From the NCBI GenBank assembly GCA_019637105.1, contig JAHBWF010000019.1, positions 1-64,000 on the forward strand: DNA of 64,000 nucleotides, written 5' to 3'. The notes beneath the pieces were generated by a model that was not told the origin of the DNA, searched no databases, and saw only the letters and a program-made list of their open reading frames with translations. Shown in pieces: positions 6,268 through 59,358 of the stretch (position 1 is its first letter; each line of letters starts with the position of its first letter). The position numbers and the translations under genes were made by a program. Source of the DNA: Labilithrix sp. (lineage in GTDB: Bacteria; Myxococcota_A; Polyangia; Polyangiales; Polyangiaceae).

Positions 6268-6278
6268 AGCCGACGGTC

Positions 6279-7637
6279 TTAGGGGGTCGCCTTCCCCGCA
6301 TCAAGCAGAACCGAAGCCGAGGCCGCCCCCGTCGGGGCGAGGGGCGCCGCCCGACGGTCGGCCGGCGCCGCGACCGACCGAAACGTCGCGAGGGGCGCCG
6401 CCCGACGGTCGGCCGGCGCCGCGACCGACCGAAGCGTCGCGAGGACGCCGAGGACGAGCGCCAGCGAGGAGACGCCGCCGATCGCGAGGACGACGCGCGA
6501 CGCGCGCGGGGATCGCCGCGGAGCCGGCGGCGCCCTCGGCGGCTCCGCGGGCGCGGTCGACGCCGCCTCGCCGAGCCGGATCCTCGGCTCGGTGGGGGCT
6601 CCGCGCGGCCCGGTCACGACGGCGTCGCGCTCCGGGCGGCGCTCCGGCGGCGGCGGCGACGTCGACGCGGCGCTGAGGGCGACGCGGAGGCACGGCACCG
6701 CCTTCGCGCTCTCGAGCCGATCGAGCGATTCGCGCGCGCGCTCGGAGGCGAAGGGACGGAGCGCGTCGGCGAGGTCGGAGGCCGACTGGAAGCGCGCGGC
6801 GACGTCCCGCGTCAGACAGCGGCTCACCACGGCCTCGAGGCCCTCCGGCGCGTGCGGCGCGTGCGCCCGGAGGCGCCGCGGCTCCGCGGTGAGCACGGCC
6901 AGGCTCGCCTGGACGTTCCCCTCGGCGGCGAACGCGTGCTCTCCCGTGATCAGCTGGAAGAGGACGGCGCCCACGGACCACAGGTCCGCCCGCCCGTCGA
7001 CGTCCTTCGAGCTCTTCACCTGCTCCGGCGCCATGTACCGCGGCGAGCCGAGCATCGTGAACGCCGTGGTGACCTCGTGCGGGCTCTCGTCGTCGATGAG
7101 CTTCTTGTCGAGGATCTTCGAGATGCCGAAGTCGACCACCTTCACGTGGACCGCGTCGTCGTCGTCGCGGCGCGTGAGGAAGAGGTTCGCCGGCTTGAGG
7201 TCACGGTGGACGACGCCGGCGGCGTGCGCCTGCTGGAGCGCCTCACACACCTGCAACATGCAATCGACCGCGTCTTCGACGGGGAGCGGACCGTCCTCCT
7301 TGAGGACGCGCGCGAGATCGCGACCCTCGAGGTATTCCATGACCATGTACGGCGCGCCGTCGTCGAGCGCGCCCGCGTCGAGGACGAGCACCACGTGATC
7401 GCTCTCGATCTTGCCCATCGCGCGGGCCTCGCGCTCGAAGCGGGTCCTGAGCTCGTCGCTCTCGAGCGCGCGGCGCAAGAACTTGATCGCGACGCGCTGC
7501 TCGAGCTGCACGTGCGTGGCCGAGAGGACGATCCCGGTCCCGCCCTCGCCGATCAGCCGCTCGACGCGGTACTTCTTGAGCAGGACGTCGCCCGCCGCGA
7601 TAGGCAAACCGCCCAGGTTGGCCTCGCTGACGCCCAT
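6279..7637 (-). CDS. Membrane-anchored Ser/Thr protein kinase
   Basis: The 452-residue reading from ATG 7637 begins just before the kinase domain (YRVERLIGEGGTGIVL, glycine loop). The family signatures follow: catalytic Lys in VAIKFL, HRDLKPANLFL, DFGISK, and APEQ in the activation segment. A single transmembrane helix (about residues 385-405) follows the kinase, leaving a short Ala/Pro-rich extracytoplasmic tail. The tail contains a 17-residue tandem duplication caused by a 51-bp DNA repeat. The frame stays open upstream to 8063, but that part is antisense to the lipoprotein gene and was rejected. It shares a 124-bp divergent promoter region with that lipoprotein and is followed 11 bp later by the carboxyltransferase, a possible target or simply an operon partner. 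Confidence 0.88.
   Translation of the reverse strand: MGVSEANLGGLPIAAGDVLLKKYRVERLIGEGGTGIVLSATHVQLEQRVAIKFLRRALESDELRTRFEREARAMGKIESDHVVLVLDAGALDDGAPYMVMEYLEGRDLARVLKEDGPLPVEDAVDCMLQVCEALQQAHAAGVVHRDLKPANLFLTRRDDDDAVHVKVVDFGISKILDKKLIDDESPHEVTTAFTMLGSPRYMAPEQVKSSKDVDGRADLWSVGAVLFQLITGEHAFAAEGNVQASLAVLTAEPRRLRAHAPHAPEGLEAVVSRCLTRDVAARFQSASDLADALRPFASERARESLDRLESAKAVPCLRVALSAASTSPPPPERRPERDAVVTGPRGAPTEPRIRLGEAASTAPAEPPRAPPAPRRSPRASRVVLAIGGVSSLALVLGVLATLRSVAAPADRRAAPLATFRSVAAPADRRAAPLAPTGAASASVLLDAGKATP
6338..6439. repeat. 51-bp tandem duplication inside kinase gene
   Basis: Two near-identical 51-bp units (6338-6388 and 6389-6439) differ mainly by one base (AAACGT versus AAGCGT) and are followed by the start of a third copy. 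The length is a multiple of three, so the kinase frame is kept and 17 residues containing ADRRAAPLA are duplicated in its extracytoplasmic tail. Confidence 0.85.
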
Positions 7638-7761
7638 CGGGACGAGGAGCGTACCAGCGACGCCGGGGAGAGACGAGCGGGTCACCGCGCGGCGGCCCGC
7701 TACGGCGACGCGCGATCGCGCCGGAGGCGGCGGGGCGGAGGAGCGTGGTACGCTTCGAGCA

Positions 7762-8559
7762 ATGCCTCGTTGGAGCATCGCGTTTGCGGGGTGCCTTGCG
7801 GCGTGCGGACTCTCGGTCACGGGCGCCCCGCCCGCGGCCGACGCCGGGCCGGGCGGTTCGGAGGACGGCTCGACGACGGTCGCCGACGCCTCCGCCGACG
7901 AGCGGGAAGGCGCGTCGTCCGACGCCGGCCCCGACGCCGACGGCGGCGTGCGCGGCTGGTGCGCCACGCAGCCGGCCCACGAGATCTGCGTCGACTTCGA
8001 CGACGGGCAGATCGTCCTCGCCGCGTCGAACGCCGTCGCCGCCCCGAGCGCCATCGACGGCACGGAGTCGCGCTCCGCTCCGAACTCGCTCCGCAGCGAG
8101 GCGACGACGATCGGCGCGAGCTCGTACGTCCATCAGAGCTGGGGCGGCGGCCGCTCGGTGGTCGATCTCGGCTTCGACGTCTTCGTCGACGGCGCCGGCT
8201 ACGCGCAGATCGGCGGCGTGGAGCTCTTCCCGACGACGGGCTACGCGCAGCTCCTCTTCGAGTACGACGACAGCACGCTCTCCTTCATGGAGTTCGCGGG
8301 CGGCGCCAAGACCGCCCACGCGCTCGGCCCCGCGGCGCTCGGGTGGCACCGCCTCGAGCTGCACGTCGAGCTCGCGCTGGCGCCGGCCAAGGGCAAGGCG
8401 GTGGTGAAGCAGGACGGCGTCGTCCATTTCGACGGCGAGCTCGCGCACGTGCACGGGGCGCTGACGAACGTGAAGGCCGACGTCGGCATCGTCTACTGCG
8501 GGAAGATCGCGCCCGTGAGGCTCTTCGTCGACAACGTGACGATCGACTCGAAGCCCTGA
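7762..8559 (+). CDS. Lipoprotein, lectin/LamG-like fold (paralogue A)
   Basis: This 265-residue protein starts at ATG 7762 with a compact signal and lipobox (FAGCLAAC). An Asp/Gly/Ser-rich linker (residues about 25-70) follows, typical of myxobacterial surface lipoproteins. The folded part starts at 'ICVDFDDG' and runs through alternating strands, ending 'LFVDNVTIDSKP'. That layout recalls concanavalin-like carbohydrate-binding sandwiches, where the last strand packs beside the first. A second protein of exactly the same length with the same 'CxDFDDG' start and 'DNV' end lies at 43368-44165, so this is a paralogous family. Ligand unknown. It is divergent from the kinase gene and convergent with the enoyl-CoA hydratase, 21 bp away. 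Confidence 0.82.
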   Translation: MPRWSIAFAGCLAACGLSVTGAPPAADAGPGGSEDGSTTVADASADEREGASSDAGPDADGGVRGWCATQPAHEICVDFDDGQIVLAASNAVAAPSAIDGTESRSAPNSLRSEATTIGASSYVHQSWGGGRSVVDLGFDVFVDGAGYAQIGGVELFPTTGYAQLLFEYDDSTLSFMEFAGGAKTAHALGPAALGWHRLELHVELALAPAKGKAVVKQDGVVHFDGELAHVHGALTNVKADVGIVYCGKIAPVRLFVDNVTIDSKP

Positions 8560-8580
8560 CCCGCGCGCCGGCGCGCCGCC

Positions 8581-9372
8581 TCAGCGCCCCTTGAAGCTCG
8601 GCCTCCGCTTCTCGGCGAACGCCGCGAGCGCTTCGCGGCGATCCTCGCTGACCAGCACCTTGTCGTAGCTCACCTTCTCGAGCTCGAGGCCGTGCTCCAG
8701 CGTCGTGTCGAACGAGCGATCGATCGCCTCGAGCGCGGCGGCCTGCGCGATGGGAGCGCCGCTCGCGATCGGCTCGATCCACGCGACGGCGTCGTCGACG
8801 ACGTTCGCCCCGGCGGGCGTGATCCGGTTGACGAGGCCCCACGCGAGCGCCTCCTCCGCGCCAAGGCGGCGCCCGAGGAGGATCATCTCCTTCGCGCGCG
8901 CTTCGCCGACGATCCGCCCGAGGCGCTGGGTCCCGCCGGCGCCGGGGATGATGCCGAGGGTCGTCTCGGGGAGGCCGACCTGGACGTGGGCGGCCGCGAC
9001 CCGGAGGTCGCACACGAGCGCGAGCTCGAGCCCGCCGCCGAACGCGACGCCGTTGAGCGCGGCGACGACCGGCTTCGGTGAACGATCGAGCGGCCCGAGC
9101 TCCGAGCGGTAGAGCTCGACCTGGACGCGGATGTCGTTCTCCGTCATCCCTTGGCGCTCCTTCAGGTCGGCGCCCGCGCAGAAGGCCTTGTCGCCGCGTC
9201 CGGTGACGACGACGGCGCGCACGGAGGCGTTCGAGACCGCCTCGCGCGCGAGCTTGCCGAGCGCGAGCAACGTCGCGCGCGACAGGCTGTTCATCCGGGC
9301 CTCGCGGTCGATCGTCCAGACGACGACGTTGCCGCGCTGCTCCACCTCGATCGGGAAGGATTCGTCTGCCAT
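8581..9372 (-). CDS. Enoyl-CoA hydratase/isomerase (crotonase family)
   Basis: From ATG 9372 the protein has 263 residues, the usual length of monofunctional crotonases. The CoA-binding/oxyanion segment FCAGADLKE is at about 64-72. Both catalytic glutamates of true hydratases are present: Glu116 in FGGGLELAL and Glu136 in LPETTLG, followed by IIPGAGGTQRL. It should hydrate trans-2-enoyl-CoA in beta-oxidation or amino-acid catabolism in the cytoplasm. The methylglutaconyl-CoA hydratase type of leucine catabolism is an alternative, given the nearby carboxyltransferase, but this is inference. The frame remains open upstream to 9516; the internal ATG was preferred because the extra residues lack family similarity. 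Confidence 0.93.
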   Translation of the reverse strand: MADESFPIEVEQRGNVVVWTIDREARMNSLSRATLLALGKLAREAVSNASVRAVVVTGRGDKAFCAGADLKERQGMTENDIRVQVELYRSELGPLDRSPKPVVAALNGVAFGGGLELALVCDLRVAAAHVQVGLPETTLGIIPGAGGTQRLGRIVGEARAKEMILLGRRLGAEEALAWGLVNRITPAGANVVDDAVAWIEPIASGAPIAQAAALEAIDRSFDTTLEHGLELEKVSYDKVLVSEDRREALAAFAEKRRPSFKGR

Positions 9373-9514
9373 CCGGGCCGCGTACCACAGCTTCGACGTG
9401 AGGGTGAGACCGTCAGAGTGTGCACCCTGTCCGCGCGTCACCGCACGCGCCTCCGCGCTTCCCCCGAATTCGACGTCGAATCTCGACGGTACGAAACATG
9501 CCTGGCGCGGGCCC

Positions 9515-10519
9515 ATGGAGATCTCCGAAGTCTCTCGCGTTCAGGCCCACCTCGCGGCCGCCGAGGCCATGCTCGCCGCGCGCGCCACGGAGAGCTTCGA
9601 GCCGATTCAGCGGTGGACGCGCCGTTTGCTCCGCGAGGAGCTCTCCGCGTACCGCGCGCGAGGGTGCTTCCCCAAGAATCGCGCGCACCCGGGCGAGCGA
9701 GCGCCGCACTTCATCGACGCGGACGGGACGCGCTGCGCGATGGCGCACCTGATGGAGATCGGAGGCGCGGGAGCGCTCGTCGCGGAGATCGCCGCGACGA
9801 ACAACAACGCCTACGTCGCGGAGCTCGCCGGGGACGCGCGCTTCCTCGCCTGGCTCGACGCCGCGGGCCTGAGCGTCGAGGAGGCGGCGACGATTCAACC
9901 CGCGTACACGTGCCGTCCGCCGCAGGACTGCCTCTGCCAAGGCAACGGCGAGGACGCCGTCGCCTGGGAAGGGACGGTCCTCGCTCGAGACGCGGGGTCG
10001 TGGCCCCAGCACGTGCGCGTCGACGTCGTTCACGGCGAGACGGCCGCCCTGATCGTCGGCGACGTCGTCGAGATGCCGATCGTCCTCGAGGCCGGCCAGC
10101 GCGTGCTGGGCACCGCGACGACGGCGGGGGCCGCGCGCGTCGAGGTCGTCGCGCCGATCGAAGCCGACGATCGACTCGGCAACCTATGCCTTCGCGGCCT
10201 GGACCGAATGTACGCGCCGGGGGCGCTGGGTCCGATCACGCCCGCGCAGGCCGCGAGCCTGCTCGTGAGCCGAGAGGACACGTGCAAGGCGGAGCTGGCG
10301 AAGCTCGATCCGTGCTGGGCGGTCGAGACATGCTCGGGAGAGAGCGACGGACCGAGCTGCTCGGACGCGCGGGCGGGCGGAGGCGCGCCGTCGGCTTCGG
10401 CGGAAGCCCCCGACGCCGGATGCAGCACGAGCGCAGGCGCGCCCGTGACGAACAGCGCCGTGCTCCTCGCGATCCTCGGCGCGCTCGCGGCGCGACGCCG
10501 TCGCCGCGTCAGGGCTTGA
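9515..10519 (+). CDS. Hypothetical protein with MYXO-CTERM-like tail
   Basis: Reading from ATG 9515 gives 334 residues. The N-terminal half has the pattern FPKNRAHPGERAPHF, then DADGTRCAMAHLME, GDARFLAWLDAAGLS and AATIQPAY. I associate this pattern with a family of uncharacterised myxobacterial proteins. A Cys-containing segment (YTCRPPQDCLCQ) follows, then a beta-rich middle. The C-terminus (Cys-Ser-Thr, hydrophobic AVLLAILGALAA, RRRRR) fits the MYXO-CTERM sorting signal. No signal peptide is visible at this start, which is odd for a sorted protein; an upstream start in the same frame does not supply one. It ends overlapping the convergent gene at 10509 by 11 bp. Confidence 0.7.
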   Translation: MEISEVSRVQAHLAAAEAMLAARATESFEPIQRWTRRLLREELSAYRARGCFPKNRAHPGERAPHFIDADGTRCAMAHLMEIGGAGALVAEIAATNNNAYVAELAGDARFLAWLDAAGLSVEEAATIQPAYTCRPPQDCLCQGNGEDAVAWEGTVLARDAGSWPQHVRVDVVHGETAALIVGDVVEMPIVLEAGQRVLGTATTAGAARVEVVAPIEADDRLGNLCLRGLDRMYAPGALGPITPAQAASLLVSREDTCKAELAKLDPCWAVETCSGESDGPSCSDARAGGGAPSASAEAPDAGCSTSAGAPVTNSAVLLAILGALAARRRRRVRA

Positions 10520-49312: not shown

Positions 49313-50683
49313 TCAGCGCGGAGACGGGAGCACCCACGGCGTGCCGCCGAGGCGGATCGGCTCGGCGGCGAGGTCGACCGTCGGATCGATCAGGCGCGCC
49401 GGCGGCCGCCCGTTCAGCGTGACGACCACGTCCGCGGTCACGCGCGGGCGCGGCTCGCCGCGCTGCTCCGCGTCGTCCGCGATCATCCGGGCGAACGCGC
49501 GGATCATGTCGGGCTGCGTCGACATCATCTTCACCTGGAACGGCGTGAGGAACGCGCGCGCGCGGACCTCCCGCGAGGCGCCCGTCCGCGGATCGGTCGC
49601 CGTGAGCTCCGCCGAGCCGGCCTTCTCGATCAGCATCACGCGCCAGGAGAAGCGGTAGCCGTCCTCCGTCCAGAGGACGTCGCCGGGGTACAGGTGGCTC
49701 CGCAGCGGGAACAGCACGTGGAAGGCCGCCCACGCGAGCGCGAGCGCCAGCGGACGTCGCGACGCCGCGCGCCGCGCGGGCGCGTCGCGCGGGCCGATCC
49801 ACCGCTCCGGGAGGACGCGCCGCGGCCACGACGGGTCGAAGAAGACGAGCGTGAGCGCGATCATCACCCACGGGAACATCCCGATCTGGAAGAGGCGCGC
49901 CGTCACGACGTGGAAGCCGACGACGCAGGCGTACGCGAAGGGCCGCGTACGGCGCGCGGTGAGGAGGAACGCGACCGACAGATCGAACGCCGCCCCGAGC
50001 CAGCTCATCACGTACGCGGTCTCAGGCCATCGCAGGACGCCGCCGAGCAGCGGGAAGTCGCCGTTCGCCGCGAGCCAGATCTGGAGCGGCATCGCCCGGA
50101 GGAGCCAGTCGGTCTGGAGCTTCCCGACGCCGCCGTAGAAGTAGACCAGCCCGATCTGGAAGCGCACCAGCCACAGCACCCACGCGGGCACGGTCGCGGC
50201 CGCGCCCGCGCGGGCGCGATCGAGCGAGAGCGCCGCCCCGAGCGGCAGCACCGCCGCCAGCGCGAGCAGGAGGCTCACCAGGTGGTAGTGGTTCAGGTAG
50301 TTCGACTTGTCGCACGCGTGCGCGTACGTGAAGAGCAGGCACGCGACGGCCGCGCTCGCGCGCGTCCGGAAGCCGGCGGCGAGGCTCGCCGCCGCGAGCG
50401 CGAGCGCCGCGTAGACGACGTACATCCCCTGCCCCGGCAGCGGCCTCACGAGCTCGAGGCCCTCGTAGGCGAAGAAGTGCGTCGGCACGACGAACGCGTC
50501 GTAAATCCCGCCCTTCGCCCAGTGACGGACGACCGCCGCGACGACGAGCGCCCCGAGCAGGAACCGAAACGCTCCGAGCGACGCGGCGTCGACCGGCGCG
50601 AGCGCGCGCGCCTGGACGCGCTCGGCCCACGCCGCGGCGCCGTCGAGGATGGGCGGCGACGACGAGGACGTCGCCGCCGCCAT
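49313..50683 (-). CDS. HTTM / vitamin K-dependent gamma-carboxylase-like membrane protein
   Basis: This 456-residue protein starts at ATG 50683, overlapping the previous stop by one base. About eight transmembrane helices occupy residues 35-300, with the HTTM signatures 'VVPTHFFAYEGLELVRPLPG', 'CDKSNYLNHYHLVSLLLALA' and 'FQIGLVYFYGGVGKLQTDWL'. A soluble beta-rich C-terminal region follows (about 340-456, 'GDVLWTEDGYRFSWRVML'). The family includes the vertebrate gamma-glutamyl carboxylase; bacterial members have unknown substrates. It ends an imelysin-DUF1111-imelysin operon where, from memory, a DUF1513 protein usually sits. It could modify or help assemble the exported iron proteins. Confidence 0.88.
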   Translation of the reverse strand: MAAATSSSSPPILDGAAAWAERVQARALAPVDAASLGAFRFLLGALVVAAVVRHWAKGGIYDAFVVPTHFFAYEGLELVRPLPGQGMYVVYAALALAAASLAAGFRTRASAAVACLLFTYAHACDKSNYLNHYHLVSLLLALAAVLPLGAALSLDRARAGAAATVPAWVLWLVRFQIGLVYFYGGVGKLQTDWLLRAMPLQIWLAANGDFPLLGGVLRWPETAYVMSWLGAAFDLSVAFLLTARRTRPFAYACVVGFHVVTARLFQIGMFPWVMIALTLVFFDPSWPRRVLPERWIGPRDAPARRAASRRPLALALAWAAFHVLFPLRSHLYPGDVLWTEDGYRFSWRVMLIEKAGSAELTATDPRTGASREVRARAFLTPFQVKMMSTQPDMIRAFARMIADDAEQRGEPRPRVTADVVVTLNGRPPARLIDPTVDLAAEPIRLGGTPWVLPSPR

Positions 50684-51816
50684 CAGTCGCCGTCCGTCAC
50701 GTTGAAGCCGACGCTCGTGCCGAGCGCGCCGGCGACCTCGGTCGCGAGGCAGCGCTTCACCTCGCGGACGGCCGCGTGCGCCGCGACGACCGGGTCGCGG
50801 CGCTCCACGACCGCGGTGCGGAGCGGTCCCGGGATGGCGCGGACGCCCTCCTTGGCCTTCTCGAGGTCGGAGCGCATCCGCGCGTCGGCGCTCGGGCTGC
50901 GCTCCGCGACGGCGTCGGAGAGCGGCAGGCCCGAGGCGTCGCCGCGGCGGCCGAAGTACACCATCTCGATCCCGTCGAGGACGGCGAGGAGGTCGTCGAC
51001 GGACGCGTCGCTCCGCGGCGACTCGATGAGCTCGGGCACCGCCACCGACGGGGTCTTGTCGAGCCCGAGCGGCTTGGCGAGGCGCACCGCGATGAGGATC
51101 TCCGCGGCGTTGATGAGCGCGTTGACGACGGCGTCGACGCCTTGGCGCTCCGACGTGTAGACGGCGCTGCCGCGTCCGGCGCGCGAGAGCTCGGCGCCGT
51201 GGTCGGTCGGAGGCTCTCTCCAGGCCGCGAGCACGACGTCGATCTTCGCGCGGAGGTCCGCGGCGACCAGCGCGGCGAGGACGCCGCGGCAGCCGCCCTC
51301 GGCCTGGAAGCTCGCGAGCATCGCGGCGTCGTCCCGCGCCGGATCGAAGAGGAGCGTCTCGAGCGCGCCGAAGCCGCGCTGGTTGGCGCCGAGCCTCGCG
51401 ATCTCCTGCGCCTCGAGCGGCGTCGAGGCGGCGGCGAGCGCCTCGACCTTGGCGATGTCGGCCGCGGTGTCGATGATCCCGCCCGTCAGCGCGAGATCGT
51501 CGGCGGGGCCGAAGAGGAACGCGTCGGTCGTCTTCCAGGAGTACCGCGCCTTCTTCCACGCGGCCCGCGCCGCGCCGAGCGCCTCGGCCGAAGGAGCGTC
51601 GCGGAGCGCGACGGTCGCCGCGTCGAGCGCCTCCGCGTCGGCCGCCGCCGCGGCGTACGCCGGGACGATCACCACCGCGGAGAGGTCCGCGAGGATCTTC
51701 CCGCGGTCCGGCGGCTCCGTGCCCTCGCGGCGGCAGGCGGCGACCGCGCCGAGCCCGACCACGCCGAGCGCCGAGAAGAACAAGAGGGCGTCGCGGCGCC
51801 CGATCGTGAGACTCAT
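50683..51816 (-). CDS. Imelysin-family (M75-like) lipoprotein, second paralogue
   Basis: This 377-residue protein starts at ATG 51816, one base inside the DUF1111 stop. The N-terminus GRRDALLFF followed by a hydrophobic run and Cys28 (GAVAAC) looks like a twin-arginine lipoprotein signal. The two-helix-bundle imelysin pattern includes 'AWKKARYSWKTTDAFLFGPA' and 'NQRGFGALETLLFD'. Where the other imelysin has GxHxxE, this one has GxGxxE, so the histidine is missing. Imelysins are periplasmic or surface iron-associated proteins, not peptidases in practice. The gene is translationally coupled on both sides. Confidence 0.86.
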   Translation of the reverse strand: MSLTIGRRDALLFFSALGVVGLGAVAACRREGTEPPDRGKILADLSAVVIVPAYAAAAADAEALDAATVALRDAPSAEALGAARAAWKKARYSWKTTDAFLFGPADDLALTGGIIDTAADIAKVEALAAASTPLEAQEIARLGANQRGFGALETLLFDPARDDAAMLASFQAEGGCRGVLAALVAADLRAKIDVVLAAWREPPTDHGAELSRAGRGSAVYTSERQGVDAVVNALINAAEILIAVRLAKPLGLDKTPSVAVPELIESPRSDASVDDLLAVLDGIEMVYFGRRGDASGLPLSDAVAERSPSADARMRSDLEKAKEGVRAIPGPLRTAVVERRDPVVAAHAAVREVKRCLATEVAGALGTSVGFNVTDGD

Positions 51817-53261
51817 CAGAGCGACTCCAGGAACGTGACGAGCGCGTCGCGATCCGCCTTCGGCATCGCGATGAAGGCCTCGCGCGAACGCGCGGCCTCG
51901 CCGCCGTGCCAGAGGATCGCCTCCGCGAAGCCCCGCGCGCGGCCGTCGTGCAAGAAGTACGTGTGGCGGTTCACCGTCTTGACGAGACCGATACCCCAGA
52001 GCGGGGCGGTGCGCCACTCGACGCCGCTCGCCTCGAAGTCGGGGCGTCCGTCCGCGAGGTCCGGCCCCATGTCGTGGAGCAAGAGATCGGTGAACGGGTG
52101 GATGACCTGGTTCGCCAGCTCCGGGAGCTCGGCGTCCGCGCCCGTGCGGAAGGTGGGGACGTGGCACCCCGAGCAGCGCGCTGCCTCGAAGAGCTGCCGG
52201 CCGCGCCGCACGTCTCGGCTCTCGACGTCGCGGCGGCCGGGCACGGCGAGCGTCTGCATGTAGAAGTTGACCTGCGCGAACAGGACGTCGCGGAGCTGCG
52301 GGGTCGCGCCCGTCGGCGCCTCGCGGCACGCCTCTTGGGTCGCGGTGCAGGACTCGTCCGGGAACATCGCGGAGGTGATCCCCATGTCGCCCACGAACGC
52401 CGCGGCGTTCTGCTGCCGGAGGCTCGGCTGGTTCGCCTTCCATCCGAAGCGCCCGAGGACCGTGCTCCGGCGCTCCACGTCCCAGACGCGGTTCGGCCGG
52501 CCGGAGATACCGTCGCCGTCGCGGTCGTCCGGGTCGGCGTTCGCGAGGAGCGCCTCCTCGGGGATCGCCTCGAGGAGCCCGAGGCCGATGACGAACGGCG
52601 CGGTCCGCGGCGAGAGCATCACGTCCGACGCGAGCGGCCCGTAGCCGAGGTCCTCGATCCGGTACGACGGCCGGCGGAGCGAGTACGTCGTGCCGTCGGC
52701 GTACGCGCCGGTCTCCTCGACGTAGGTGATGCGCGTCGTCCCCTCGTAGGGGACGCCGAGGATGCCGTTCTCCTGGAGCTGCTCGCCGTAGACCGGATGG
52801 GGCATCGGCCCGCCGTCGTCCGCCCGCCCGGGCACGCTGAGGCGCACGAGCATCGAGAGCAGCGCCTCGTCGGGCTCCTCCGGCGGACGCCCGCGCCCGT
52901 CCTTGAAGTGACACCCGGAGCAGCTCGTGGCGTTGAAGAGCGGCCCGAGACCGTCGAAGTCGGCGACGGACGCGGGCGCCGTCACCCAGCCGCGGTTGAA
53001 GACGGCGTTGCCGAGGAAGAAGTCGTCGCGCCGCTCACCGTGCAGGTTCGCCAGCGGACGCGCGAACGCGTCGCGCGTCCGGTCGAACACGGTCCCGGCG
53101 CCGCCCGATCGGGCGTCGTCGACGGGGAGGACCTCGGTGTCGGGCTCGCCGCACGCCGCCGCGACGGCGGCGGCGTGGACGAGGAGAGCGAGCGCGGAGG
53201 CCCTCGAGCGGAGCCCTCGCTTGCCCGACCCGAGCCCCCTCGCGCTCTCCCGATCGCTCAC
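51816..53261 (-). CDS. Di-haem thiol-oxidoreductase-like protein (DUF1111)
   Basis: From GTG 53261 the protein has 481 residues. A signal ends at VAAAC, probably a lipobox. Two CxxCH haem sites are present, C114-SGC-H118 and C363-SGC-H367. DUF1111 landmarks include 'RDDFFLGNAVFNRGWV', 'GDGISGRPNRVWD' (a calcium-like Asp loop), 'GRFGWKANQPSLRQQNAAAF' and 'LLLHDMGPDLADGRPD'. It is an exported c-type cytochrome, related in form to MauG/CcpA. It may oxidise iron or cysteine for the imelysins. The GTG at 53291 was rejected because it adds an acidic leader. It lies 45 bp after the first imelysin gene. Confidence 0.9.
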   Translation of the reverse strand: MSDRESARGLGSGKRGLRSRASALALLVHAAAVAAACGEPDTEVLPVDDARSGGAGTVFDRTRDAFARPLANLHGERRDDFFLGNAVFNRGWVTAPASVADFDGLGPLFNATSCSGCHFKDGRGRPPEEPDEALLSMLVRLSVPGRADDGGPMPHPVYGEQLQENGILGVPYEGTTRITYVEETGAYADGTTYSLRRPSYRIEDLGYGPLASDVMLSPRTAPFVIGLGLLEAIPEEALLANADPDDRDGDGISGRPNRVWDVERRSTVLGRFGWKANQPSLRQQNAAAFVGDMGITSAMFPDESCTATQEACREAPTGATPQLRDVLFAQVNFYMQTLAVPGRRDVESRDVRRGRQLFEAARCSGCHVPTFRTGADAELPELANQVIHPFTDLLLHDMGPDLADGRPDFEASGVEWRTAPLWGIGLVKTVNRHTYFLHDGRARGFAEAILWHGGEAARSREAFIAMPKADRDALVTFLESL

Positions 53262-53306
53262 GTCGCGCTCCTCCGCGTCCTCCGATAGCACACCGAGGCG
53301 CGTCGG

Positions 53307-54521
53307 TCAGAGCTCCTCGCTCGGCTCCTCGAGCTTGAACTCGACGCCGAGCTTCTGGCCGATCTCGATGATCGTCGGCGCGGTCGCCCTGATGGCCTGG
53401 ATCGCCTTGAGCACGTTGTCCCGCTCCGGCGTCCCGTCGGCCGCCGCGATCGCGTAGTCGAACGGCACCGACTGCAGCGCGTTCACCGCGGCGAGCGCGG
53501 CGTCGAGCTCGCTCTTCATCTTCGCGTCGAGCTCGGGATCGACGGCCTGGACGAGGACGTCGATCCCGGGGCCGGACGTCGAGCCGTACTTGCCGAGGTA
53601 GACGTTCTGGATGCCGACGAAGTTGCCGAGGATGTCGGCGTTGGTCGTGTCGCTGAAGCAGGAGTGCTCGTCCTCCTGACCGCGGTTCTTGTAGGCCACG
53701 GTCATGCGCTCGCCGGAGAGCTCGGCGTTCGCCATCGAGCCCATGCCCGTGAGCATCTTCGTCACCGCGTCCTTCGGGTCCGCCACGAACGTCTTGGCGT
53801 AGTTGTCCTTGCCGGGCTCCCACGCGGTCGTGACCTCCTCGAGGTCCTCGACGAGGATCTCGGCGACGAGCTTCAGGTACTGACCGCGGCGCTCCTGGTT
53901 CTCCGCGGTGCCGCCGGTGGTGAGGTAGTCGGTGAACGAACGCTGGCCGGCGGTCTTCGGCGTCGGGTCCTCGTCGTCCTGGCCCCAGAGGAGGAACTCG
54001 ATCGCGTGGAAGCCCGTCGAGATGTTCTTCTCGCCGCCCTTCTCGTTCTCGCCGCGGATGACGTCCTTGTTCAGCTCGGGGAAGAGGTCCGGGCGGTTGA
54101 TGATGCCGGCGGTCGCGTCGTCACGCGTGTAGTCGATGAAGTTCTCGTCGAGCGGCCACGCGTTGATCGCCCCTTCGGGTCCCGTCTCCTCGTCGTCGAT
54201 CGGGCCGCCGTAGAAGCGGTAGACCTCGCTCGGTCCGTACGGGAGGCGCGCCGCGACCCACGCGTCCTTGGCGGCCTGCTGCGTGGCCGCCGAGGGGGCC
54301 GCGACGAACGCGTCGATCGCCGTCTGGAGCGCGCGAGCCTTGTCGAGGCACTCGGCGTAGTTCGTGTGGACGTTCTTCGCGTATTGCTCCGCGACCTGCG
54401 GAGCGCCCGCGAGCGGATCGGTCTGCGAGCCGTTGGATCCGTCGGAGTCGTCGCCGCACGCGGCGACGAGGGCGAAGAGGACCGAGGCGGTAAGCGACGA
54501 ACGGAGAAGAATGCGCGACAT
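53307..54521 (-). CDS. Imelysin / iron-regulated lipoprotein (IrpA type)
   Basis: This 404-residue lipoprotein (lipobox ALVAAC, Cys22) has the imelysin motif G170-F-H172-A-I-E175 (GxHxxE) within 'STGFHAIEFLLWGQDDED'. Family landmarks 'YGPSEVYRFYGGPIDDEETG' and 'NAWPLDENFIDYT' are also present. IrpA-type proteins are strongly induced by iron starvation in cyanobacteria and take part in iron acquisition. It heads a four-gene minus-strand operon; a Fur-like site lies 37 bp upstream, with a good ribosome site (AAAGGAG) between. Together with DUF1111 and the second imelysin it forms the usual iron cluster. Confidence 0.94.
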   Translation of the reverse strand: MSRILLRSSLTASVLFALVAACGDDSDGSNGSQTDPLAGAPQVAEQYAKNVHTNYAECLDKARALQTAIDAFVAAPSAATQQAAKDAWVAARLPYGPSEVYRFYGGPIDDEETGPEGAINAWPLDENFIDYTRDDATAGIINRPDLFPELNKDVIRGENEKGGEKNISTGFHAIEFLLWGQDDEDPTPKTAGQRSFTDYLTTGGTAENQERRGQYLKLVAEILVEDLEEVTTAWEPGKDNYAKTFVADPKDAVTKMLTGMGSMANAELSGERMTVAYKNRGQEDEHSCFSDTTNADILGNFVGIQNVYLGKYGSTSGPGIDVLVQAVDPELDAKMKSELDAALAAVNALQSVPFDYAIAAADGTPERDNVLKAIQAIRATAPTIIEIGQKLGVEFKLEEPSEEL

Positions 54522-54557
54522 ACGGGGCTCCTTTGAGGGTGCGTGGCCTATAGCACA

Positions 54558-54572
54558 TGAAAGTCATTTTCA
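54558..54572. promoter_or_regulatory. Fur-like box, imelysin operon
   Basis: TGAAAGTCATTTTCA (plus strand) reads TGAAAATGACTTTCA toward the imelysin gene, a palindromic 15-mer of the 7-1-7 Fur type (TGAnAATnATTnTCA). Its end is 37 bp from the imelysin ATG. It stands out as the AT-rich patch in this region. Confidence 0.72.
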
Positions 54573-54617
54573 AATCATCCAGGAGGGCGCCGGCCGGACG
54601 CGGCTCGGCGCCCGACG

Positions 54618-55016
54618 TCACGACGCGCGCGCGGTCGCCCCGGCGGAGGCGACGATCTTGTCGACGAGCTGGCGCTCGACCCAGTGGACCTGCGCGACGC
54701 TCGGCAGCCTCACGCCGTGCTCGGCCTCGAGGATCCCGACGAGGCCCTCGTAGGTCTGCGAGCGCGCCTTCCAGCCGTGCGAAGGAAACGCCTCGTAGGC
54801 GCCGCCGGTGAGGCGCGACGGCGTCAGGATCGAGATCTTCGCCTCCGCGTGCCAGAGCTGCACGTGCCAGAGGCCGCGCTGGACGAAGCACTCGAAGGCG
54901 CGCCCCGTCGAGACGCGGACCTCCCAGGCGCCGAGGCGAAGCGTGGCCTCGCGATCGCGCGGATCGTGGGGCGGCGGGGGCGAAACGACAGGCTGAGGAA
55001 GCGGATCGGGCGTCAT
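54618..55016 (-). CDS. Hypothetical protein in iron regulon
   Basis: This 132-residue protein from ATG 55016 has a Pro-rich N-terminus, then a compact domain with many aromatic residues ('FECFVQRGLWHVQLWHAEAK', then 'YEAFPSHGWKARSQTYEGLV'). No signal or membrane segment. Not recognised. The perfect Fur-like palindrome lies 29 bp upstream and is shared with the divergent Cys protein, so it should be iron-repressed. It is followed by the imelysin operon on the same strand and could be cotranscribed, although that operon has its own operator. Confidence 0.7.
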   Translation of the reverse strand: MTPDPLPQPVVSPPPPHDPRDREATLRLGAWEVRVSTGRAFECFVQRGLWHVQLWHAEAKISILTPSRLTGGAYEAFPSHGWKARSQTYEGLVGILEAEHGVRLPSVAQVHWVERQLVDKIVASAGATARAS

Positions 55017-55044
55017 GGCTTGACAGGACCTCCGCCCTCTGTCT

Positions 55045-55065
55045 TATTGAAAACGATTTTCAATA
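55045..55065. promoter_or_regulatory. Fur-like box, divergent haem genes
   Basis: Perfect 9-bp arms (55045-55053 and 55057-55065) around a CGA centre; core TTGAAAACGATTTTCAA. It agrees with 12 of 14 fixed positions of the 7-1-7 Fur consensus. It sits between the start codons at 55016 (minus) and 55088 (plus), suited to control both. Confidence 0.82.
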
Positions 55066-55087
55066 TCAAGAAGGGAGCGCGATCGCC

Positions 55088-55312
55088 ATGAAAGACACCT
55101 GCCATCCGCAGAGGGTGCTGCTCGCCGAGGGCCCGTTCTGCAAGGTCGAAGGCTGCGACTGCGGGACGATGCACGTCTCGCTCGGTCCGATCACGTTACG
55201 CCTGCGCGTGGACGTCGTCGAGAGCGTGTGGAGCACGCTCGGCGAGTCGCTGGTCCGCTTCGGACGAGCGACGCAGCGCGCGAGCCAGATCGAGCGGGAG
55301 CGCCTCTCGTGA
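55088..55312 (+). CDS. Small cysteine-containing protein, head of haem operon
   Basis: This 74-residue protein from ATG 55088 follows a good AAGGGAG ribosome site. Four Cys (C5, C18, C23, C25; 'GPFCKVEGCDCGTMHVSLG') and two His could bind a metal. A short beta region ('VSLGPITLRLRVDVVESVW') and helix follow. No signal peptide, so it is cytoplasmic. Its stop overlaps the HmuY-like GTG by four bases (GTGA). The position behind a Fur-like box suggests a role in iron or haem handling, e.g. a small metal-binding or regulatory protein. Confidence 0.75.
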   Translation: MKDTCHPQRVLLAEGPFCKVEGCDCGTMHVSLGPITLRLRVDVVESVWSTLGESLVRFGRATQRASQIERERLS

Positions 55313-56421
55313 TCCGACGGGCGGCGTGGCTCACGCCGCACGCCGCGACCGCTGCGCTCGCCCTCGCGCTCGCGGCGTGCGACGAGTCCGTCAAGCGTGA
55401 CGAGCCCGCCGCGCCGGCGGCCGACGCCGGGACGGATCCCAGCGCCTTCGACTCGGGCGAGGAGCTCACCTTCACCGTGCCGGACGTCGGGCGCGTGCAC
55501 GTCGCGCTCGATCCTCCGGCCGTCGTCGACGCCGCGGCCGCGTGGGACCTCGCGTTCGAGGGCTACGACGTCTTCACGAACGGCGGCGCGTCCGGCTCGG
55601 GCGCCGGCGCCGCGTTCGGGCCGCTCGAGCCGGTGGTGTTCCTCGGCGAGCAGCCCCCGGCGGTCCCGTTCCTCACGTCCGATCGCACCGGCGGCGCGTT
55701 CCTCGGCTGGTACGCGTACTCCGGCGCGCCGGCGCACGCGCTCTACAGCCGCTTCCACGTGGTCGGCGTGCGCGACGGCGATCGCCTCTTCAAGGTGCAG
55801 GTGCTCGGCTACTACGGCCAGCGCGACGGCGCCGCGATCGCCGCGCTCTATTCGCTGCGCTACGCCGAGCTCGGCGCCGGCGGCGTGGGCCCGGTGCAGG
55901 AGCTGACGCTGCTCGACGGGACGGCCGGCGGCCCCGCCGGAGCTCCGACGACGCCCAACGAGTGCCTCGATCTGATCACCGGCGCGCGCACGATGAAGAC
56001 CCCCGACGAGTCGCGCGCGTCGTCGGACTGGCACCTCTGCTTCCGGCGCGACGCGATCTCGGTGAACGGCGAGCGCGGCGGTCCTCGCGGCGTCGGCGCG
56101 GTCGATCTCGACGCCGAGGCGACGAAGGACGAGACGCTCGCCGAGGTCCAGGCGCGGACGGCGGACTCCGAGCGCGCGCGCTTCGACGCGGTGACCGCGG
56201 CGTCGTTCGAGGGCAAGACGTTCCGCGGCGATCGCATCGTCAGCGTGTTCGGCGACACGTGGATCGATCGCACGGGCTCGCCGCCGAAGCCCGCCTACGC
56301 CGCGTGGCTCGTCCAGACGTCGGGCGGAACGAAGAAGGTGCTCGTCGGCTTCGCGCGCTTCGAGAACGCGACGGCCGCGGCGCCGGGGACGGTCGTCTTG
56401 CGAGCCAAGCCGCTCCGATGA
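55309..56421 (+). CDS. HmuY-like haem-binding lipoprotein (long)
   Basis: The 370-residue reading from GTG 55309 has lipobox ALALAAC (Cys20), then an Asp/Ala linker. The core has HmuY features: 'AAWDLAFEGYDVFTNGGASG', 'GWYAYSGAPAHAL', 'LFKVQVLGYYGQRDGAAIAA' and 'YSLRYAEL'. HmuY proteins capture haem at the cell surface. The ~170 residues after the core include an extra repeat-like domain ('FRRDAISVNGERGGPRGVGA'), so the protein is longer than the ~200-residue HmuY. It is coupled to the small Cys protein and followed by a shorter HmuY-like gene. Confidence 0.84.
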   Translation: MIRRAAWLTPHAATAALALALAACDESVKRDEPAAPAADAGTDPSAFDSGEELTFTVPDVGRVHVALDPPAVVDAAAAWDLAFEGYDVFTNGGASGSGAGAAFGPLEPVVFLGEQPPAVPFLTSDRTGGAFLGWYAYSGAPAHALYSRFHVVGVRDGDRLFKVQVLGYYGQRDGAAIAALYSLRYAELGAGGVGPVQELTLLDGTAGGPAGAPTTPNECLDLITGARTMKTPDESRASSDWHLCFRRDAISVNGERGGPRGVGAVDLDAEATKDETLAEVQARTADSERARFDAVTAASFEGKTFRGDRIVSVFGDTWIDRTGSPPKPAYAAWLVQTSGGTKKVLVGFARFENATAAAPGTVVLRAKPLR

Positions 56422-56482
56422 CGCGACCGGCGACCAAGACGACGAGCGCGGCGACCGCCGAGCTCTTTCTCACGAGGAGACC

Positions 56483-57268
56483 ATGAACCGATCGACGCTC
56501 ATCATCGCTTGCCTCTCGTCCTTCCTCGCGCTCGCCGGAGCCGCGGCGTGCTCCGACGACGACTCGACCGCGGCGACGGACTCCCCCGACGCCGGCGCGG
56601 ACGCCGACGGCGGCGCGCTCCCCGGCGAGGACGGGGGCGGCGCCGACGACGGCGGCGGCGGCGGATCGTGCGAGGCCGCGCGCCAGACCGCGCTCCTCCC
56701 CGTGGACGAGGTCTCGACGGCCGAGGTGACCGTCCTGTCGGAGGAGGGCGCGACGAAGACGCTCTTCGTCGACGCGACCGCCGGCGGCGCGGCGGGCGCC
56801 GCCACCGAGCCGCGCGTCTACGTCGACCTGTCGACCGGGAGCCGCGTCGACATCTCCGACGTCGCGGCGGCGTCTTCGACGGCGTGGGACCTCGCGCTCG
56901 AGCGATCGTACGTCTTCACGAACGGCGGCGACGGAGGCCCGGGCCAGGGCGCCGCCGTGTACGTGGACAAGCCCGAGGCCGACGTCACCGCCGCCGACGC
57001 GACCGGGCTCGTCACCGAGAAGTTCTTCGACGAAGACTGCAACCAGATCCCCGACCGCAGCGGGCGCGGCTTCAAGACGACCTTCGACGACTGGTACGAC
57101 TACGACCTCTCGACGAACAAGCTTACCCCGTTCGAGGGTACGTACGTCGTCCGCGGCGGCACCGGCAAGCTCTACAAGGTTCGCATCGTCACCTACTACG
57201 CGAACCCCGACGGCAACGTGGGCGAGGTCAGCGGCCGCTTCGTCCTCCGCGTCACACCGCTCGACTGA
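56483..57268 (+). CDS. HmuY-like haem-binding lipoprotein (short)
   Basis: This 261-residue lipoprotein (lipobox GAAAC, Cys23) has a Gly/Asp-rich linker (about 24-62). The HmuY pattern is 'VDISDVAAASSTAWDLALER', then 'SYVFTNGGDGGPGQG', 'GRGFKTTFDDWYDYDLSTNK' and 'YKVRIVTYYANPDGNVGEVS'. Its start follows GAGGAG. It lies 61 bp after the longer HmuY-like gene. The two probably bind haem outside the cell and pass it to a TonB receptor encoded elsewhere. Confidence 0.85.
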   Translation: MNRSTLIIACLSSFLALAGAAACSDDDSTAATDSPDAGADADGGALPGEDGGGADDGGGGGSCEAARQTALLPVDEVSTAEVTVLSEEGATKTLFVDATAGGAAGAATEPRVYVDLSTGSRVDISDVAAASSTAWDLALERSYVFTNGGDGGPGQGAAVYVDKPEADVTAADATGLVTEKFFDEDCNQIPDRSGRGFKTTFDDWYDYDLSTNKLTPFEGTYVVRGGTGKLYKVRIVTYYANPDGNVGEVSGRFVLRVTPLD

Positions 57269-57396
57269 GTCGGGGCGCCGGCCTCGTCGCCCCCCCTCGA
57301 GGTCGACGTCCCCACGCCCCGGCCCTCTCCCGCCGCCTCCTCGCCGCTCGATGACAGCTCGCCCCGTCCACCCTCGCAGCCCGAAAGGAGCATCCC

Positions 57397-58452
57397 GTGA
57401 TCCGACATCTCTCGTCCGTGCTCACGACCTGGCTCACGAAGCGGCGATCGACCGATCTTCGCACGCTCGAGATCGCCGAGGAGCTCGGCGTGACGGAGGG
57501 CGAGCTCGTCGCGTCGGCGTGCGGGGCGAGCGGCGAGCTCGTGGCGACGCGCCTCCGCGGGGCGCCGGTCGAGCTCCTGGGAGAGCTCTCGGTGCTCGGC
57601 CCGATGAAGGCGATCACGCGCAACCGCGACGCGGTCCTCGAGGTCGACGGCGCGTACGCCGAGCTCGAGCTGTTCGAGCACACCGGGCGCGTGGCCGGCG
57701 AGATCGACCTCCGCCTGTCGCCAGGGCGCTGGCGCCACGTCTTCTCCCTGCGCGAGGAGTCGAAGCGCGGCCCGCGCGTGAGCCTGCAGTTCTTCGACGA
57801 CGCGGGCGCAGCGCTCCACGAGGCGCACGCGACGGCCGAGACGGACCACGAGGCGCTCGAGGAGCTCATCGAGCGGAGGACGGCGGCCAATCAGTCGCCG
57901 ACCATGCCCGTCGAGCGGCCGCCGTCACCGCCGCCGACGCGGCCGGACGACGCGATCGACGTCGCGGGGCTGCGCGCGGCGTGGCGCGCGATGAAGGACA
58001 CCCACGAGCTGCTCGATCTGCTCCGGCGCTTCGAGGTCGGGCGCCGCCAGGCGCTGCGCCTCCTCGGCCCCGACTTCGCGCGGCCGGCGTCGCCGAAGGC
58101 GCTCGAGAAGACGCTCGCGGACGTCGCGGCGGCGTCGGTGCCGATCATGATCTTCGTCGGCAACCCCGGCCTCATCCAGATCTGGTCGGGGCCCGTGCGA
58201 CGGCTCGTACCGCGCGACGGGTGGGTCCACGTGCTCGATCCGACGCTCGACCTGCGCGTGCGCGAGGACCGGATCGACAACGCGTGGGTCGTCCGCAAGC
58301 CGACGGACACCGGCGTCGTCACCGCCCTGGAGGTCTACTCGGGCGAGGAGCTCACGACGCTCATCGTCGGCAAGCGGCGCCCCGGCGACGCCGAGAACGA
58401 AGCGTGGCGGCGCATCGTCGTCGACGCGCCCGCGCCGGAGGTGACGCGATGA
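57397..58452 (+). CDS. hmuS: Haem utilisation protein, HmuS/HemS family
   Basis: This 351-residue protein starts at GTG 57397 after AAAGGAG. Two copies of the HemS/HmuX fold are visible: the N-half 'EELGVTEGELVASACGASGE' and 'MKAITRNRDAVLEVDGAYAE', the C-half 'FVGNPGLIQIWSGPVRRL' and 'DNAWVVRKPTDTGVVTALEV'. HemS/HmuS proteins carry or degrade haem in the cytoplasm. No signal peptide. Its stop overlaps the next ATG by four bases. Its place after two HmuY-like genes makes a role in using imported haem very likely. Confidence 0.92.
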   Translation: MIRHLSSVLTTWLTKRRSTDLRTLEIAEELGVTEGELVASACGASGELVATRLRGAPVELLGELSVLGPMKAITRNRDAVLEVDGAYAELELFEHTGRVAGEIDLRLSPGRWRHVFSLREESKRGPRVSLQFFDDAGAALHEAHATAETDHEALEELIERRTAANQSPTMPVERPPSPPPTRPDDAIDVAGLRAAWRAMKDTHELLDLLRRFEVGRRQALRLLGPDFARPASPKALEKTLADVAAASVPIMIFVGNPGLIQIWSGPVRRLVPRDGWVHVLDPTLDLRVREDRIDNAWVVRKPTDTGVVTALEVYSGEELTTLIVGKRRPGDAENEAWRRIVVDAPAPEVTR

Positions 58453-58826
58453 AGCGCGGCGCGCGCCCGAGGACCTGGCTCGACGGCCACGATCGACGGC
58501 GGTTCGTCGAACGCCGCGGCGCGACCGCCGCGCGCGATCGCTGGCGCTGGCCGAGCGCGGCGCTCGAGCCGCCGCCGGCGAGGCCGGCGCGACGCTCGGG
58601 GACGTTCGTCATCCAGCGGGACGGCGGACCGACCGAGGCGCCCCGCGGCGCAGCTTCGGGCCTCGGGCTCGTGGCGTACGCGATCTTCGGGCTCGCCGCG
58701 TTCCCGCTGGTCGGCGCGGCGTTCCTCGGGCACCTCCTCCCGCCGCTCGCGTTCGTCCTGCTCGCGATCTCTGCCGCGGGCCTCTTCTTCGGCGCCGTGA
58801 CGAGGCTCGAGCCGCCGTGGTCGTGA
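58449..58826 (+). CDS. Small membrane protein coupled to hmuS
   Basis: This 125-residue protein starts at ATG 58449 (ATGA overlap). The N-terminal ~65 residues are Arg-rich and soluble, then two hydrophobic helices follow (about 71-90 and 96-116). Not recognised. The coupling suggests a membrane component of haem use, e.g. an anchor for HmuS, but this is inference. Confidence 0.72.
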   Translation: MKRGARPRTWLDGHDRRRFVERRGATAARDRWRWPSAALEPPPARPARRSGTFVIQRDGGPTEAPRGAASGLGLVAYAIFGLAAFPLVGAAFLGHLLPPLAFVLLAISAAGLFFGAVTRLEPPWS

Positions 58827-58847
58827 GCCGGAGCGGCGGGCCTTGAC

Positions 58848-58863
58848 CCGAATTTGACTTTCA
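58848..58863 (+). promoter_or_regulatory. Candidate Fur-like box before hemerythrin
   Basis: CCGAATTTGACTTTCA matches the imelysin-operon site (TTGAAAATGACTTTCA) at 12 of 16 positions, and its right half is almost identical. It lies 15 bp before the hemerythrin GTG and overlaps a possible -35 (TTGACT, 58854). The weakest of the three sites. Confidence 0.5.
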
Positions 58864-58878
58864 ATACCATGCTGGAAC

Positions 58879-59358
58879 GTGGTTCATCCCATCCAGGAGC
58901 TCGCGCACGATCACCGCGAGCTGAGCGCCCTCCTCTTGGCGGTGCGGGATGCGCTCGCGCGCGTCGAGCGCGGACAGTCGAACCTCGACGACGAGCGGCA
59001 CGAGATCGGCGACGGCGTCGAGGTGTTCCGCGAGGCCCTGCTCGAGCACTTCGCGCGCGAGCAAGAGGGCGTGCTCCCGTTCGTCGTCGCGCGGCTGCCG
59101 GCGGTCCGCCCGCGCGTCGATCAGCTCATCGCCGAGCACGACCGCATCGCCGAGGCGCTCACCGCGCTCGTGCGGGACCTCGGCGCGGTGGACGCGGGCG
59201 GCGGCCTCGGCGCGCTCCGCGCGTCGCTCTCCCGCTTCGAGGAGCTCTACGCGTCACACTCGAAGGCCGAGCTCGGCTTCCTCACGGAGGTCGCCGAGAC
59301 GCTCGCCGACGACGCCGACGCGACCGAGCAGCTCCGTACGCTCCTCGACGAGCCCTGA
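58879..59358 (+). CDS. Hemerythrin-like iron protein
   Basis: This 159-residue protein starts at GTG 58879. Di-iron ligands of a hemerythrin four-helix bundle are visible: His12 (HDHRE), His57 and Glu61 (EHFAREQE), His87 (EHDRI), His127 and Glu131 (SHSKAEL). Bacterial hemerythrins bind O2 or NO, or sense iron and oxygen. A Fur-like site directly upstream suggests iron-dependent control with the adjacent haem genes. It converges with the TPR gene at 59402. Confidence 0.88.
   Translation: MVHPIQELAHDHRELSALLLAVRDALARVERGQSNLDDERHEIGDGVEVFREALLEHFAREQEGVLPFVVARLPAVRPRVDQLIAEHDRIAEALTALVRDLGAVDAGGGLGALRASLSRFEELYASHSKAELGFLTEVAETLADDADATEQLRTLLDEP

Follow-up and report, generated by a model that had tools for sequence, protein, structure and literature searches.

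A vitamin K-dependent gamma-carboxylase homologue coupled to imelysin in a putative Fur-type iron regulon of Labilithrix sp. and in other bacteria

The imelysin operon and its terminal gene

The DNA considered here, hereafter the window, is a stretch of 64,000 nucleotides from Labilithrix sp. (contig JAHBWF010000019.1 of assembly GCA_019637105.1; contig C101 in our numbering of this 8.45-Mb draft genome). Its minus strand carries an operon in which imelysin A, a DHOR (DUF1111) protein and imelysin B are followed, in last place, by a membrane protein homologous to human GGCX, the vitamin K-dependent gamma-carboxylase (VKGC) by which clotting proteins of the blood are activated. Pfam searches bore out the order imelysin-DUF1111-imelysin-HTTM that a preliminary description of the locus had proposed. 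The operon and the box at its head are as follows.

49313..50683, minus strand, VKGC (GGCX homologue) of 456 amino acids with an HTTM membrane domain and a lumenal domain (Pfam PF05090, 6e-70; PF22777, 6e-43)
50683..51816, minus strand, imelysin B (PF09375, 2e-39)
51816..53291, minus strand, DUF1111/DHOR di-haem peroxidase-like protein (PF06537, 8e-107)
53307..54521, minus strand, imelysin A, LruB/ICMP-like, with the canonical GxHxxE motif in the form GFHAIE (PF09375, 2e-77)
54558..54572, no strand, Fur-type box 36 bases ahead of the imelysin A start (30.2 bits, first rank in the window)

The imelysin B stop and the HTTM start (50683), like the DHOR stop and the imelysin B start, overlap in the sequence TGATG. 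Imelysin A also matched the NCBIfam LruB model (8e-46), at a score far under the cut-off of that model.

The HTTM protein can be assigned to the GGCX family on its two domains, its predicted fold and its active-site residues, in agreement with the preliminary description, which had called it gamma-carboxylase-like. The single sequence matched human GGCX at about 1e-36 over nearly its whole length (its residues 25-453) and a profile of 22 VKGC sequences did so at 2e-84, the homology spanning residues 53-504 of the full-length human chain. In the AlphaFold model of the window VKGC (predicted local distance difference test, pLDDT, 91.5) the resemblance extends to the fold, as a structure search returned 16 Protein Data Bank (PDB) matches at E <= 0.001, all of them GGCX, with template-modelling (TM) scores of up to 0.83 by query length against the cryo-electron microscopy structures. 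The human active-site residues, whose roles we took from PMC12589487, were mapped onto the homologues by single-sequence and profile alignments. The window VKGC possesses the equivalents of the catalytic lysine K218 (its K188), of the Asn-His pair of the Glu pocket, N159 and H160 (the latter being its H132), and of the quinone-pocket residues F286, F294, F299 and W223. Among 105 homologues directly linked to an imelysin (see below), the equivalents of N159, H160, K218, W223, F286 and F299 are kept in all, that of F294 in 104 and that of M402 in 102, while Y395 (Tyr in 64/105) and M401 (Val in 105/105) are not conserved. In 100 of the 105, Ala or Gly stands at the position of K217, a residue that PMC12589487 assigns to substrate binding and not to catalysis. 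On the strength of this homology and of the intact catalytic residues, "modifies" becomes a better guess than "processes", both of which the preliminary description had put forward for an action on the exported imelysin/DUF1111 complex, and modification of imelysin by the HTTM protein is now a plausible and much better founded proposal.

Could the HTTM protein instead lack enzymatic activity and serve imelysin in the inner membrane as a partner or an iron permease, as EfeU serves EfeO? The logic of the operon parallels that of the ferrous iron transporter EfeUOB, where an imelysin domain, a peroxidase and a membrane protein likewise come together, and according to PMC3143127 the outer-membrane imelysin operons lack EfeU. 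However, the membrane protein of EfeUOB is an Ftr1-type permease and not a carboxylase homologue, and the GGCX fold, together with the invariance of the catalytic lysine and near-invariance of the quinone pocket, renders such a role very unlikely.

In 20 unlinked or weaker homologues the catalytic lysine is retained, but 11 of them have Lys or Arg in place of M402. Lysine occupies this position in the VKGC homologues of loci L047, L050, L071, L074 and L152 (the last at a contig edge), none of which has a directly linked imelysin; such proteins perhaps serve another substrate class. The window genome has a third HTTM-domain protein of lower score (L086; G000:C212:31333-32097; 54 bits, above the cut-off), and the 18.5 kb fetched around its gene contained no recognised imelysin.

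Pairing of VKGC with imelysin B in two phyla

The preliminary description had presented the joining of imelysin and HTTM as new to this locus. This does not hold, as the pair proved widespread both in the phylum of the window and in Bacteroidota; the outcome that the preliminary description itself would have counted as a refutation, HTTM beside imelysin in this genome alone, is clearly not what was observed. For the former, 140 genomes were sampled and a PF22777 match of >=100 bits was termed strong; 31 of the 39 strong VKGCs immediately follow an imelysin in the same orientation (29/37 when the two of the window genome itself are subtracted), as against none of the 10 weak matches, some of which are contig-edge fragments. 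An imelysin is present in each of the 30 genomes with a strong VKGC, 23 have an imelysin only and 87 have neither (Fisher's test, 2e-16). The Bacteroidota sample consisted of 118 genomes from the phylum of a Pontibacter genome, itself picked for having the pair. Here 26 of 31 VKGC places are directly behind an imelysin, and the genomes divide into 27 with both, 1 with VKGC only, 3 with imelysin only and 87 with neither (3e-22). In a larger Bacteroidota sample VKGC occurred in 82 of 395 genomes. Its 30 best loci were retrieved with short flanks, and at every one an imelysin B ending in Asp-x-Asp stands upstream; 11 of these loci are shared with the smaller sample. Finally, a pattern scan of named genomes found at least 578 relatives; the best 80 of these were retrieved, a set that leans towards the window's kind. 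Among the matches listed, Myxococcales, Archangium, Polyangiaceae, Nannocystis and Bacteroidota are interspersed in the best ranks. Over all loci fetched up to that count, 105 of 121 strong VKGCs have a directly linked imelysin. The pairing is thus real, widespread and under-described, and the coupling of imelysin and VKGC is strongly supported.

The constant partner of VKGC is imelysin B. The full order imelysin A-DHOR-imelysin B-VKGC was found in 18 of 130 fetched loci, and the other common order in the loci inspected is lipoprotein (DUF4856 or delta-60/beta-propeller)-imelysin B-VKGC-TonB receptor. The window genome has both operon types, the second lying on contig C35 (L046; G000:C35:30000-48500, positions 5457-9869), where a Fur-type box of its own is accompanied by a beta-propeller-like lipoprotein, imelysin B, VKGC and a TonB receptor match downstream. 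Tree distances of the enzyme and of imelysin B are correlated (r 0.853 over 103 pairs), and none of 500 permutations reached this value, the highest being 0.164. Five genomes contain two pairs, and the closest relatives of each pair share its operon type, with one exception among 60 listed neighbours. The DHOR-type imelysin B proteins are nearly monophyletic (21 in a clade of 24). With the pair so conserved and its trees correlated, the functional tie between the HTTM protein and imelysin that the preliminary description had assumed is supported.

Two further explanations bear on these data. Mere co-regulation, with both genes responding to iron in separate processes, would account for the 8 of 39 VKGC homologues of the window's phylum that stand alone; set against the constancy of order and adjacency in two phyla, the correlation of the trees and the absence of weak homologues from the slot behind imelysin, it is hardly probable. 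Alternatively, VKGC may carboxylate another exported product of the operon (the TonB receptor, the DUF4856 or beta-propeller lipoprotein, or the DUF1111 protein), with imelysin B as a constant neighbour or adaptor. TonB receptors and DUF4856 or delta-60-repeat proteins do flank many of the pairs, a receptor match being present within 2.6 kb of 13 of the 31 VKGC-linked imelysins in the phylum sample. Yet it is imelysin B that remains constant; the window operon is without DUF4856, two purpose-built receptor profiles detected no TonB receptor in the 64 kb of the window, and the tree distances match those of imelysin B, the sole partner so compared. We regard such a substrate as rather unlikely.

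Some loci deserve separate mention. DUF4856 (PF16148) precedes imelysin B-VKGC in five of eight upstream proteins tested (L090:5680-6774, L125:4234-5379, L106:5546-6787, L045:4914-6380 and L061:11755-13188). In a Chloroflexi metagenome-assembled genome (MAG; L114) an imelysin operon lies convergent beside VKGC, and in a lichen MAG (L088) a TonB receptor sits between imelysin and VKGC. For L165 (genome G144), on a contig titled Rickettsiales bacterium (MAG), the phylum sample overlaps that of Pontibacter, which points to Bacteroidota and probably to a mislabelled record.

The slot behind imelysin B is not exclusive to VKGC, as in relatives without the carboxylase it is usually filled by a membrane protein of the FA_hydroxylase family. 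In the phylum sample, the gene following 54 Asp-x-Asp imelysins is VKGC in 31 cases, an FA_hydroxylase in 17, a TonB receptor in 3 and another gene or a contig edge in 3, and at none of the 54 loci are both enzymes present in the slot. PF04116 was confirmed by Pfam in all six FA_hydroxylase proteins tested. With either enzyme found in the same place, what the slot requires seems to be a membrane-embedded enzyme that uses oxygen, and not VKGC as such. FA_hydroxylases mostly modify lipids. It may therefore be asked whether VKGC too acts on a lipid or quinone, by menaquinol epoxidation or by changing a lipid anchor, with the hydroxylase performing a similar membrane job. The mutually exclusive occupancy of the slot would suit this, as would the fact that no Glu of imelysin B tracks the enzyme. 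Conversely, the equivalents of N159 and H160 in the Glu pocket are invariant in the linked enzymes and the lumenal domain retains its first part, neither of which a pure quinone epoxidase would obviously need, and an action on lipid or quinone is possible but on the unlikely side.

Eleven hydroxylase frames also match the receptor profile in the same open frame, which was Pfam-confirmed for L204 (4099-7101), where an FA_hydroxylase and a TonB-dependent receptor share one frame behind an Asp-x-Asp imelysin. Similar long frames occur in L187, L190, L193, L194, L195, L197, L199, L200, L203 and L206, as matches to purpose-built profiles, and in L202, by length. A fusion of an inner-membrane enzyme to an outer-membrane receptor would be odd.

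In the open-licence literature we found no paper that discusses the imelysin-VKGC pair and no co-mention of imelysin with HTTM or with DUF4856; only PMC5609570 lists both members of the pair. Where imelysin is co-mentioned with other carboxylases or with vitamin K in further papers, the passages concern unrelated matters. Its Table 4 gives, for Riemerella anatipestifer, RAYM_09794-09789-09784-09779 as a hypothetical protein, an imelysin lipoprotein, an annotated VKGC and a TonB receptor, with ratios of 2.1-3.1 without versus with iron. The operon is iron-responsive but is given in the table only; the words "carboxylase" and "imelysin" appear a single time each in the main text, which therefore discusses no link. 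The imelysin operon described in PMC3143127 resembles that of the window in its two imelysins (GxHxxE and GxxxxE) and its DUF1111 protein under Fur, but two imelysins and an EfeB homologue are what is named there, whereas the last gene of the window operon is VKGC; the word "carboxylase" is absent from its main text. A carboxylase homologue in Leptospira is mentioned in PMC4555120.

Fur-type boxes and the adjoining haem genes

Divergently from the imelysin operon, the plus strand of the window carries genes for haem proteins and a hemerythrin, interspersed with two further boxes.

54618..55016, minus strand, open reading frame (ORF) for a 132-amino-acid protein of no assigned family (no Pfam or NCBIfam match)
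55048..55062, no strand, Fur-type box between the 132-amino-acid gene (minus strand) and the plus-strand haem operon (28.5 bits, second rank)
55088..55312, plus strand, Cys-containing protein of 74 amino acids, no assigned family (no Pfam or NCBIfam match)
55309..56421, plus strand, HmuY-like protein 1, a weak and partial match (PF14064, 7e-10)
56483..57268, plus strand, HmuY-like protein 2 (PF14064, 8e-12)
57397..58452, plus strand, HemS/ChuX-family haem protein, "HmuS" in the Yersinia sense (PF05171, 2e-55)
58449..58826, plus strand, protein of 125 amino acids with a hydrophobic stretch at its C-terminus (from its sequence; no Pfam match)
58849..58863, no strand, weaker Fur-type box before the hemerythrin gene (18.7 bits, third rank)
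58879..59358, plus strand, hemerythrin HHE-domain protein (PF01814, 6e-13)

The families proposed earlier for the plus strand (HmuY, HmuY, HmuS, hemerythrin) agree with Pfam, with the qualifications that "HmuS" stands for HemS/ChuX and that the first HmuY match is weak and partial: in this protein of 370 residues the best PF14064 stretch covers just 23 (75-97). The two small proteins described as having no known family, which flank the box at 55048, indeed gave no Pfam or NCBIfam match at the thresholds used, nor did the 125-amino-acid protein match Pfam.

Three related palindromes had been noted at the operon heads and attributed to one Fur regulon. A search pattern, TGAAANNNATTTTCA, derived from the first two and allowing at most one mismatch, gave 26 oriented matches at 18 places in the genome, while the reversed control gave 0. 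Thirteen of the 16 places outside the window were annotated, and another is the second imelysin-VKGC cluster on C35. Their neighbours include clear iron genes (a TonB receptor, Bfd and a fur-family gene), plausible but less telling ones (a PepSY_TM protein, an MFS transporter and an extracytoplasmic function (ECF) sigma factor) and a remainder not belonging to iron families (ribosomal protein S4, a PNPOx-like protein, DUF2271 and proteins without a family). The ribosomal protein S4 gene of L221 (1080-1688) lies directly behind a strong Fur-type box at 1726. A matrix built from eight places outside the window, and none inside it, ranks the three palindromes (54558, 55048 and 58849) first to third in the window, all above 15.7 bits, the top score in 30 first-order Markov windows. 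The top two ranks are partly built in, because TGAAANNNATTTTCA came from those two sites; the third box, outside the pattern, offers a more independent test, though it is clearly weaker.

The same matrix was applied to the phylum sample, leaving out loci with less than 1.5 kb of flank. Of 30 VKGC-linked loci, 19 have a box of >=17 bits no more than 4.65 kb upstream of imelysin B, versus 5 of 26 downstream controls; at loci without VKGC the figures are 14 of 22 versus 0 of 12. With such palindromes standing at the operon heads as well as at known iron genes, the sequence data support the interpretation of the window locus as a Fur-type regulon.

Imelysin B as a candidate substrate

The imelysin B of the window has a lipobox-like start, no His at the GxHxxE position (GFGALE) and the C-terminus VTDGD. 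Its model resembles the Psychrobacter imelysin IPPA (PDB 3pf0; TM 0.72/0.83), and the VKGC-linked imelysins in general are close to the class that PMC3143127 calls after IPPA and PA4372. The model has no secondary structure past residue 361 of 373, and the last five residues (369-373; pLDDT <50) are predicted to be disordered. All 105 VKGC-linked imelysins score better on the profile of the window imelysin B than on that of imelysin A. In the GxHxxE column, His is found in none of 103 aligned linked imelysins and Pro in 72, the pocket motif of these partners being mostly GxPxx(D/E); by comparison, His and Glu are present in 27/27 aligned imelysin A proteins, and the His in 12 of 42 unlinked imelysin B-like proteins. 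The extreme C-terminus is Asp-x-Asp in 104 of the 105 linked imelysins and in none of 30 imelysin A proteins, with both Asp invariant in 25 aligned imelysin B sequences. The invariant Cys of alignment A2 is so by selection, since most of its rows were chosen from a lipobox count, itself discarded because its search window varied with the domain start. Asp-x-Asp C-termini were also sought in the ORFs before stand-alone VKGCs, and none was seen among the candidates listed.

Taken with the homology, fold and intact catalytic residues of VKGC, its pairing with imelysin B, the matching tree distances and the Fur-type boxes, all of which are observed, these data lead us to favour, tentatively and at somewhat less than an even chance, the reading that a menaquinol-dependent VKGC modifies exported imelysin B for iron uptake within a Fur-type-controlled imelysin/DUF1111 cassette. 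In the inner membrane VKGC would draw on menaquinol together with O2 and CO2, and acidic side chains of imelysin B would be carboxylated during export. The product would be a metal-binding imelysin B of malonate type, which could bind iron and help to pass it on from the outer-membrane receptor. As candidate acceptor or recognition site we consider the flexible Asp-x-Asp C-terminus.

A number of observations weigh against this reading. As to the substrate, the motif Glu is replaced by Asp in 53 of 103 linked partners and is Glu in 38, and no Glu column of the alignment sets VKGC-linked imelysin B apart from its FA_hydroxylase-linked counterpart in the direction that would favour this reading. 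The Asp-x-Asp tail is also present in 27 of the 42 unlinked imelysin B-like proteins and in IPPA (3pf0), which ends STDGD; the tail therefore marks the family and not the enzyme, was rejected as a VKGC-specific signature, and may have another job. As to the enzyme, the window VKGC has 456 amino acids versus 758 in human GGCX, and the match stops at human residue 506, so that the human C-terminal part, with the second propeptide-binding lobe and the arch, is absent. This part may be an animal addition. The Leptospira VKGC homologue reportedly has an altered activity that points to a role other than protein carboxylation. Eight strong VKGCs of the phylum are not behind an imelysin (one, L038, at a contig edge), and the DHOR-type enzymes do not form a single clade in the midpoint-rooted tree. 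VKOR (PF07884), for which the window genome gave a 51-bit match, occurs in 18 of 30 VKGC genomes versus 98 of 140 overall in the window's phylum, and was not found in the other 12; as a co-travelling recycler it showed no association with VKGC, and there is no sign of a VKOR-dependent cycle. As to regulation, the iron response of the Riemerella genes stays in a fur mutant (ratios 2.7-3.1), and fur deletion with iron present shifts the four genes just 1.4-1.9 in Table 4 of PMC5609570, which therefore backs an iron response more than direct Fur control, the dependence on Fur being weak.

A bolder version of the favoured reading, which we consider quite unlikely, is that bacterial vitamin K-dependent carboxylases ordinarily serve iron uptake by converting the Asp-x-Asp tail or a nearby acid into a siderophore-like malonate chelator, that the FA_hydroxylase of relatives hydroxylates the same tail, and that the animal clotting carboxylase lies within a bacterial iron-scavenging family.

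The bacterial homologues of GGCX are not known to have a clear substrate. The present data supply them with a partner that is both frequent and specific in Bacteroidota and in the phylum of the window, and with a regulatory setting (iron and Fur-type boxes); they also show the catalytic residues to be intact and reveal another enzyme that occupies the same slot. Imelysin, for its part, gains a possible missing modification: two purified members, IPPA and PIBO, showed no specific binding of ferric iron or haem, according to data mentioned but not displayed in PMC3143127, a result that fits a missing modification and equally a non-binding role. In many bacteria VKGC, its catalytic residues intact, is encoded immediately after an exported protein of iron uptake, so that imelysin B can now be tested as its partner and perhaps as the bacterial substrate long sought for it.

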